From Gammaproteobacteria bacterium RBG_16_51_14 (GTDB taxonomy: Bacteria > Pseudomonadota > Gammaproteobacteria > Eutrophobiales > Eutrophobiaceae): 35,692 bases of DNA. The notes under the pieces were generated by a model. That model searched no databases and was not told the origin of the DNA. It was given only the letters and a program-made list of their open reading frames with translations. Within the stretch, counting starts at the first letter, position 1; each line of letters begins with the position of its first letter. The translations under genes were made by a program, and so were the position numbers. Below, one piece after another: positions 26,890 to 31,060 of the stretch. Where the stretch lies: assembly GCA_001802375.1 (NCBI GenBank), contig MGXK01000028.1, positions 611-36,302 of the forward strand, given 5' to 3'.

Positions 26890-28544
<1,655 letters not shown>

Positions 28545-28858
28545 GTTAGTATTTACATAGTTGCTGCAAGATTATGTTATTTCAGGAGTAATGATTTTTT
28601 ACCCTGGGTAATATAGAATGGCAAGCCGAACTGCCAGCTAAGGGACTGGATAATTGCTATCCAGCTTGTCCAATACAAGCATTGCGTTGTCTTGCGGACA
28701 TTAAAATGCTAACGTTCTCATATTGTGCACCGCACAATTCTATATCTTGTGTTGAACCAAGATAAACACCCATATATATAGATGTAAATGGAATATGAGC
28801 GTATATTGTCTGCACACAGCACATCGTGCCTGCCTGGAAAACATGACGGAGACTGGTT
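28545..28858. other. Intergenic region with two perfect hairpins
   Basis: No gene is credible. It contains CTGGATA-ATTGC-TATCCAG (28646-28664, 7 bp) and ATTGTGC-ACC-GCACAAT (28722-28738, 7 bp), neither with a T-tract, then a promoter-like element for the downstream transglycosylase. A/T content is visibly higher than in the neighbouring genes. Confidence 0.6.
28752..28780 (+). promoter_or_regulatory. Candidate promoter of the tandem-SBP transglycosylase
   Basis: TTGAAC (28752-28757) and TATATA (28775-28780) are spaced by 17 bases, about 80 bases before the start codon. The GCACAAT hairpin ends 13 bases upstream of the -35 and could be an operator. Confidence 0.4.
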
Positions 28859-31060
28859 ATGACACCATTATCTGATGTCAAATACCTGCGCTGGTGTATT
28901 CCTGATTACCGTTCATTCCTGATTCTGTTGACACTGATCGCATGCAAGGCCGTTGCACTGGACACGAACGGTGTCCCGAATCAGTTGACCGGTTGTGGTG
29001 ATCCGGATGCCGCTTACCAGCACGCGTTATCCATGATGCAAACGCCCGTAGCGGCTGTCTCCGATCTGAATGAAATTGTGGCACGCGGTCGAATCCGTAT
29101 CCTGCTGCATCAGAATCACGGGATCTGCAGTATCAGCCTGGCTGAACGCCGGCTGATGGAACAATTTGCAAGGGAAAAGGGACTTACACCGGTCTGGATA
29201 TACGTGGATGAGGATTGGCAGTTGTTGCCATCATTGCTCGCAGGCATGGGTGACATTATTGCTGCAGGGGGTGACTCTCTCGCTGCCGGCATGAGCGGAC
29301 AGGTTAAATTTTCCCTGCCATGGGCAAGCTCATACCAGCAAGTGGTTGTCCGTACCGACACGGGCCAGATCAGCAACCTCGAAGACCTGGCGGTCAGGCA
29401 GGTTGCCATAAAACGCTCCTCACCGGCATGGGCGCTGATGGAAGAGATTGCAACACAGTACCCGGGCATTGATCTGGTTGAAATACCGTCCTCTCTGACG
29501 AATGAAATGATATTGCAGCGTGTCAACTCCGGGCAATATGATGTGACCGTACTGGAAAGTATTTTTCTGGAAACCTATCTGCCGGGACACCCGGAATTAA
29601 GTGTCGCCCTTGATCTCCCAGGGGAAAGATCCATGGCCTGGGGGGTAAGCGCAGCTGCCACGGAATTGCATGCATCACTGAATCAGTTCCTCAATAAGAA
29701 TCACCTGACGCTGGATGCAGGCAATGTCTATCTGGATGACCTGCCAAAAATCCAGCAACGCCATGTGCTGCGCGTGATTACCTATCAGAACACGACCGGT
29801 TATTATCAGCGTGAAGGCAGGCTTTACGGGTTTGAATACGATCTCGTGAAGAAGTTTGCCAGGGCACACAATCTGAGGGTGAGTGTCGTCCTGGCGTCCT
29901 CACACAAGGAAATGCAGGATCTGTTGCTGCAGGGGAAAGGCGATATTATTGCAGCTTCCTTGCCGGCCACCATGAGCAGGGATATGGATCAGATTTATTA
30001 CACGAAACCCTATCACTATGCCGCCCCGGTGATCGTGGGGCGTGATACAGACGACAGGCTGCTGGATACCCGCGATCTGGAGGGCCGTCGAATCATCCTG
30101 CCTGCGGAGAGCCCGTATCGCACCTATCTGGAATCAGTCAGGAATCGTGGCATCAATTTTGAACTGGCAGAAGCGGAAAAGGGTATCAATACGGAAACGG
30201 CATTGCTTATGGTGGCCATGGGTATCTATGACCTGACCGTAGTGGGCAGTCATCAGATCAAATCAGGATTTGTGCGCCAGATCGGACTTAAACCACATTT
30301 TATACTGAGTGAACCAGAGGCCCATGCCTGGGCGGTGCGATCAGGCGATCACAGGCTGCTGGCCGCCATAAATGCGTATATCGACCACGAATATCGCAGT
30401 GAGTTCTATAACATAATTTATAGTAAATATATTACCGAACCTGTCATTCCGGATGGAAATGCCGGATTAATTACCCGTCTTGATCGGCTCTCCCCGTTTG
30501 ATGAAATTGCCCGTACCTATGCCGAACGCTATGATTTCGACTGGCGTTTGATCGTCGCGCTGATGTTTCAGGAGAGTCATTTCAATCCAAAGGCCGCATC
30601 TGATTCCGGTGCAGAAGGGTTGATGCAGGTGTTGCCTGAAACCTCGGAACAGTTGGGTATTACCAATCAGAACAATCCGGAAAACAGTATTCATGCGGGG
30701 GTGCGTTATCTTGATCTGCTGCGCAGTAAATTTGAAAATGAATTATTGCTGGAAGATCGTACCTGGTTTTCCCTGGCGTCCTATAATGCAGGATATAACC
30801 GTGTCAATCGCGCCCGCCGGATAGCCGGGAAGATGGGCCTGGACAAGGACCGCTGGTTCGATAACGTGGAAAAAACCATGCTGGCATCATCAAGCCGGAA
30901 TGCGGGTAATGCAGACATCCCGTTGTGCAGGTGTGGACAGACGGTGGCCTTCGTTCGGGAGATCCGCACGCGGTACAATAATTATGTCAGGCTGACGGAA
31001 TCCGCCAGCGTTGCCTCTGCCAACGGGGTTTACGAACACCCGATTGAAAATCTGAATTGA
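28859..31060 (+). CDS. MltF-like lytic transglycosylase with two solute-binding (SBP_bac_3) domains
   Basis: This 733-residue exported protein probably cleaves peptidoglycan glycan strands. The N-terminus has a signal or anchor segment (FLILLTLIACKAVAL, about 19-33). Two SBP_bac_3-type domains follow: the first about 70-290 (RGRIRILLHQNHG...), the second about 305-530 (RHVLRVITYQNTTGYYQREGRLYGFEYDLVKKFARAHNL). The C-terminal SLT domain, from about 555, has the catalytic Glu572 in MFQESHFNPKAASDSGAEGLMQV and the later AYNAGYNR-type segment SLASYNAGYNRVNRAR. E. coli MltF has one binding domain and about 518 residues, so the extra N-terminal domain is the notable difference. In the first domain the ligand pocket is less typical. 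GGAG lies 7 bases before the ATG. Confidence 0.88.
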   Translation: MTPLSDVKYLRWCIPDYRSFLILLTLIACKAVALDTNGVPNQLTGCGDPDAAYQHALSMMQTPVAAVSDLNEIVARGRIRILLHQNHGICSISLAERRLMEQFAREKGLTPVWIYVDEDWQLLPSLLAGMGDIIAAGGDSLAAGMSGQVKFSLPWASSYQQVVVRTDTGQISNLEDLAVRQVAIKRSSPAWALMEEIATQYPGIDLVEIPSSLTNEMILQRVNSGQYDVTVLESIFLETYLPGHPELSVALDLPGERSMAWGVSAAATELHASLNQFLNKNHLTLDAGNVYLDDLPKIQQRHVLRVITYQNTTGYYQREGRLYGFEYDLVKKFARAHNLRVSVVLASSHKEMQDLLLQGKGDIIAASLPATMSRDMDQIYYTKPYHYAAPVIVGRDTDDRLLDTRDLEGRRIILPAESPYRTYLESVRNRGINFELAEAEKGINTETALLMVAMGIYDLTVVGSHQIKSGFVRQIGLKPHFILSEPEAHAWAVRSGDHRLLAAINAYIDHEYRSEFYNIIYSKYITEPVIPDGNAGLITRLDRLSPFDEIARTYAERYDFDWRLIVALMFQESHFNPKAASDSGAEGLMQVLPETSEQLGITNQNNPENSIHAGVRYLDLLRSKFENELLLEDRTWFSLASYNAGYNRVNRARRIAGKMGLDKDRWFDNVEKTMLASSSRNAGNADIPLCRCGQTVAFVREIRTRYNNYVRLTESASVASANGVYEHPIENLN

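Follow-up and report, generated by a model that had tools for sequence, protein, structure and literature searches.

Why a lytic transglycosylase (LT) should carry two stacked Venus-flytrap domains, and how such an enzyme is controlled, is the question raised by a gene of Gammaproteobacteria bacterium RBG_16_51_14. The gene lies in a stretch of 35,692 nucleotides that was analysed as a whole and is called the window here. Open reading frame and domain searches define a CDS of 733 aa with an ATG start (28859..31060, + strand). The product is a putative MltF-like lytic transglycosylase, predicted to be periplasmic and to form 1,6-anhydroMurNAc. The best overall explanation, to which we give a probability of about 0.7, is a two-flytrap MltF-like LT under predicted NrdR control that has probably lost the sensing of amino-acid ligands. 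NrdR is the dNTP-sensing repressor of ribonucleotide reductase (RNR), and its predicted control of an LT is the unexpected part of the analysis.

The original prediction of tandem SBP domains followed by a complete SLT domain with Glu572 is borne out by Pfam, profiles and structural models, and its domain limits (about 70-290 and 305-530) are correct. The first flytrap (SBP1 or VFT1, residues 70-290, 29066..29728, +) was delimited by profile, model and signature comparison and lacks the TxxR amino-acid signature. The second (SBP2 or VFT2, residues 291-535, 29729..30463, +) corresponds to the regulatory module of MltF by domain search and structure match. The SLT catalytic domain (residues 551-658, 30509..30832, +) reaches 91.4 bits against a Pfam cut-off of 21.3. 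The catalytic Glu572 (codon 30572..30574, +), part of an ES motif, is kept in 85/85 distinct tandem proteins, a comparison set from which fragments and identical copies were removed. Pfam recognizes SBP2 alone as SBP_bac_3 (312-526, 58.4 bits), and the excised SBP1 (221 aa) has no SBP_bac_3 match in Pfam. This blindness is due to divergence, and SBP1 is still an SBP by profile and fold. A family profile of 31 SBP1 sequences matches MltF structures at E 8.8e-37, and a profile built from 10 sequences of the murU-linked clade described below does so at E 1.5e-20. The SBP1 and SBP2 profiles align with an hhalign probability of 100 at 22% identity. The predicted model of SBP1 on its own (pLDDT 91.2) resembles both the MltF binding module (Z 20.1, rmsd 4.0 over 213 residues) and BvgS VFT2 (Z 18.6), and the full-length model has a pLDDT of 86.9 and a pTM of 0.84. 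Both flytraps have the fold of amino-acid SBP family 3, which answers the initial doubt that the first domain might fail to match it. All 27 SBP1 rows tested fall on one branch (support 86) beside SBP2 and MltF, in a tree that does not separate duplication from fusion. Fold, catalytic residue and the single SBP1 branch are established at the level of sequence.

Compared with MltF (family 1E; PDB 4p11, 5aa1-5aa4), SBP2 and SLT align over residues 292-717 (Z 29.4, rmsd 10.3 over 400 residues, 28% identity) with the catalytic Glu conserved. Unlike MltF, the window protein has an extra N-terminal flytrap, with two SBP domains rather than one ahead of SLT. Its 326 bits fall short of the NCBIfam NF008112 equivalog cut-off of 354, with the match confined to 294-715. 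Two SBP domains in tandem are also found in the periplasmic receptors BvgS, EvgS, GlnPQ and the V. cholerae GGDEF proteins. The tandem flytraps of BvgS (4q0c) align over 70-535 (Z 19.6, rmsd 16.7 over 433), and further tandem-SBP structures matched are 9ilw, 6h30 and 5gzs. In contrast to these receptors, the output here is an SLT muramidase instead of a kinase, transporter or cyclase.

Proteins of this architecture are not rare. Some match to the tandem protein is present in 54/58 searched relatives. Among 369 sampled genomes of the class, 46 match at E 1e-50 and 39 of these span both flytraps (counted from the listed ranges). A further search kept the best 80 of 585 loci, ten of which (L130, L131, L133-L140) cover SBP2-SLT only. 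Microbulbifer species, an Olavius endosymbiont and Acidobacteria are among the genomes named for these best 80. The architecture is widespread and occurs in cultured Microbulbifer. The concern that it might already be common therefore holds. No publication describing a tandem-SBP plus SLT architecture was found in the literature searched, and the autolysin survey PMC8051824 has no mention of it under SBP or MltF terms. The window genome has four SLT matches and no canonical single-SBP MltF was found there, unlike many family members, which carry a single-SBP MltF plus the tandem protein. In two family genomes (G024 and G019; loci L056 and L057) the tandem LT is broken across several frames, reflecting decay or assembly errors.

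Upstream of the LT gene lie amgK, for a MurNAc/GlcNAc kinase (26890..27897, +), and murU, for a MurNAc-1-P uridylyltransferase (27885..28544, +), both identified by domain searches. The MurU neighbour scores 304.6 bits, above its cut-off of 250, and the AmgK-like neighbour 275 bits, below its equivalog cut-off of 550. A murU gene is located upstream on the same strand for 38 of the 85 tandem proteins (36 within 600 bp, two at 2.5 and 2.9 kb) and is missing there for 42, the contigs of the remaining five being too short to judge. The linked proteins form a single group of 41 rows (38 linked, three short contigs; SH-aLRT 88) in a tree built on SBP2 and SLT with the signature columns removed. Linkage thus characterizes 38/38 testable members of one clade versus 0/42 testable loci outside it and needs one change on the tree. 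The existence of this murU-linked clade is likewise established. Past the SLT domain, a CxC cysteine pair (C690 and C692 in CRCGQ; 30926-30934 of the window) occurs in 32/41 clade members versus 2/44 others, and single-SBP MltF has a YxRGGE-like sequence at this position. Lipoprotein anchoring was considered and rejected: LIAC (residues 26-29) looks lipobox-like by eye and was not counted by the script, and lipoboxes occur in 2/41 clade members versus 21/44 others.

It was proposed at the outset that the LT is part of a linked turnover-recycling function. On this reading, both flytraps would sense muropeptides or amino acids, and a shared operon would tie the LT functionally to AmgK-MurU recycling. 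The constant adjacency of murU in the clade speaks for such a tie, as do AnmK and AmpG-family permease genes in the window genome, because of which LT products can be recycled; they could feed AmpG, AnmK and the AmgK/MurU pathway. Yet the intergenic distance between murU and the LT gene is 116-321 bp in 35/38 linked loci (314 bp in the window), a gap with conserved operators of its own. In 13/36 loci the LT remains without an amgK gene ahead of murU, and 17 of the 20 unlinked genomes searched (out of 42) encode murU elsewhere. At testable clade loci, murU is found in 37/37 besides the window, kdsD in 23/24, amgK in 23/36 and queC (downstream) in 23/34, counts that leave out, neighbour by neighbour, loci with too little flanking sequence. 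The murU linkage therefore sits in a longer conserved block and cannot alone prove that the genes act together. The proposed adjacency stands as a conserved feature, but joint function does not follow from it.

The ligand residues of the flytraps bear on the same reading. HisJ binds free alpha-amino acids through the Arg of a TxxR motif and an Asp. With E. coli HisJ and ArgT as reference sequences, the TxxR form was scored because composition alone would place a bare Arg in the nine-residue stretch in 39-51% of cases. TxxR is present in SBP1 of 0/38 linked versus 39/42 unlinked proteins, and in SBP2 of 1/38 versus 29/42. The sole linked case is TMSR of the window protein, which is out of line with its relatives. 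The acid is kept in 27/38 linked versus 38/42 unlinked proteins in SBP1, and in 8/38 versus 39/42 in SBP2. In the window protein, SBP1 lacks TxxR and has Glu as the acid, and SBP2 has Gly at the acid position despite its TMSR; neither domain carries the signature of an amino-acid binder. Arg and Asp are kept in 7/7 single-SBP proteins compared, and the loss of most of this signature from SBP2 separates the clade from MltF. These alignments show loss of the carboxylate-binding Arg from both flytraps of the linked clade, which counts as a single evolutionary event rather than 38. It is therefore doubtful that the flytraps of this clade simply sense amino acids or muropeptides, and the proposal that two sensors serve two ligands loses ground. 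PMC10746161 reports activation of P. aeruginosa MltF by muropeptides at its regulatory domain, and the acidic equivalent of HisJ D161 persists in SBP1 of most linked proteins. With TxxR gone from both flytraps, we nevertheless consider sensing coupled to recycling through a shared operon possible at best and on the doubtful side.

The loss of ligand residues in both domains could also mean that the flytraps of the clade have degenerated into structural spacers without a ligand, leaving control to transcription only. Several residues of SBP1 (R94, P118, W120 and D157 in domain numbering) are, however, invariant in 10/10 diverse members of the linked clade, and P118 and W120 align at the T120-Q122 ligand loop of HisJ. 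Since these residues are invariant, a change of use is favoured over decay, and we regard pure spacers as unlikely. In our preferred reading of a two-flytrap LT that has lost amino-acid sensing, the upstream flytrap would be stacked on the MltF regulatory module, and the conformation of both would govern how active the enzyme is, with free alpha-amino acids no longer serving as ligand. The flytraps may instead respond to another ligand or to a partner protein.

The second part of the preferred reading concerns the promoter, where the original prediction had overlooked NrdR-like boxes ahead of the LT gene. Scoring used the NrdR consensus acaCwAtATaTwGtgt. Box 1 (ATTCTATATCTTGTGT, 28737..28752, no strand) scores 10.5 of 12. 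Box 2 (CCCATATATATAGATG, 28769..28784, no strand), 32 bp after box 1, is degenerate and scores 8.5 of 12. A weak -10-like TATATT (28802..28807, +) follows 17 bp past box 2, read by eye and absent from the consensus-scan hits. Pairs were scored at a distance of 31-32 bp (maximum 24) and compared with 100 dinucleotide shuffles. The window site (d=32) scores 19.0 of 24 and is the sole pair of at least 16.5 in the window. The same score recovers E. coli nrdA (19.5) and nrdH (20.0), and 0/1212 random windows reach 18 or more. In the window's family, meaning a 31-row group of the tree less one short contig, 30/30 testable LT upstream regions beat 100/100 shuffles, though these promoters are not independent, as the LTs share ancestry. 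Across the clade, p is at most 0.01 at 31/40 loci, of which the 31st (L132) is weak at 15.5. The ten clade loci beyond the family have no strong boxes (best L132 and L109, both 15.5), and 0/44 tandem LTs outside the murU clade show a pair under the same scoring. Upstream of six single-SBP loci and of E. coli mltF no boxes were found, the best score being 13.5 of 24, and the operator is a further difference from MltF. The mean clade pair score across spacings peaks at 31. One locus (L041), with less than 150 bp upstream, was left unscored in the promoter test, and the pattern search found its pair at G027:C51:28-68. A chance origin of the boxes is ruled out by the shuffles, the spacing scan, the random windows and a reversed-pattern control. 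A paired NrdR-like operator ahead of the LT start is an established sequence feature throughout the family.

The RNR promoters of the window's family carry a pair in 30/30 testable cases, with one locus (L181) omitted for too little upstream sequence. Just ahead of its start, the RNR gene of the window genome bears a pair with an exact core, the same core as in the LT pairs of relatives (CCACTATATATAG). The genome also encodes NrdR (TIGR00244, 214.5 bits); the nrdR locus itself has no box pair of at least 16. A pattern search allowing one mismatch in 53 family genomes gave matches in 33, and the reversed pattern gave 0 in all 53. By hand count with strands merged, there are 37 distinct sites: 28 at tandem LTs, two at RNR genes, three at a 3D-domain gene and four at other genes. 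The LT lies in 23 of the 30 loci listed, and coordinates were used to assign the rest of the 28. Missing from the 37 is the LT site of the window itself, whose box 2 is degenerate at one position of the core and which the one-mismatch pattern did not pick up. NrdR-like pairs by other genes are seen at an enoyl-CoA hydratase-like gene (L160), at a poly(A) polymerase gene (L172) and between methyltransferase-like and dehydrogenase-like genes (L150). The small 3D-domain gene (PF06725; weak MltA match) occurs in 4/53 family genomes, all of one genus, with an NrdR-like pair in 4/4 (scores 18.5-20.5; L169 1620-2186, L170 857-1441, L207-L210). It is putatively a second wall-cutting gene with the same operator.

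Published accounts of NrdR fit this arrangement in part. According to PMC12051234, NrdR requires two boxes, and the spacing between them is 15-16 bp in three of the four species examined there. In PMC9110341 the boxes are often placed over the RNA polymerase site. The two 16-bp boxes upstream of the LT gene, with 15-16 bp between them, are similar, and NrdR binding is predicted. The target differs, being a cell-wall enzyme, whereas PMC4409342 gives as described targets RNR genes and, with one box, topA in Pseudomonas. In the titles and abstract openings of literature naming both, no NrdR control of a transglycosylase was found. That a regulator other than NrdR binds the paired AT-rich boxes is quite improbable, for while the LT pairs (mostly d=31) and NrdA-type RNR pairs (mostly d=32) differ in core and four sites adjoin other genes, both kinds keep the same 31-32 bp register, the window genome's RNR pair shares its core with relatives' LT pairs and the E. 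coli nrd promoters score alike.

The gap between murU and the LT gene holds conserved palindromes, including one just upstream of box 1 (ATTGTGC-ACC-GCACAAT, ATTGTGCACCGCACAAT here; 28722..28738, no strand) that was identified by a scan and comparison of relatives. A TATTGCNNNGCAACA palindrome is present at about the same place in 19/40 clade members at a score of at least 10 of 12. An intrinsic terminator was considered and rejected: the sequence TCTATATCTT makes a poor tail, and TATTGCNNNGCAACA occurs at about this place in many relatives, so the element is read as an operator. It is possibly a PhaR site. A PHB_acc_N gene is present in the window genome, and the PHB_acc_N locus has no TTGCNNNGCAA.

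Taken as an NrdR-controlled enzyme, the LT would be repressed jointly with RNR through NrdR bound at its operator when dATP/ATP signals that DNA precursors are sufficient. Wall-cutting capacity would then track dNTP demand during replication and growth, and the promoter data suggest a tie between wall cutting and the supply of DNA precursors. NrdR probably also governs peptidoglycan-cleaving enzymes in this family, namely the tandem-flytrap LT and, in four genomes of one genus, the MltA-like 3D protein. The murU-linked subfamily without the amino-acid signature and the unlinked proteins with it provide a natural comparison for the role of flytraps on a muramidase. On the broader question of how wall hydrolases keep step with DNA replication, an LT with the operator of the RNR repressor offers a direct, testable link. 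A single purified protein and two promoter fragments would suffice to address this predicted link. If true, a single switch would control both DNA-precursor supply and cell-wall opening.
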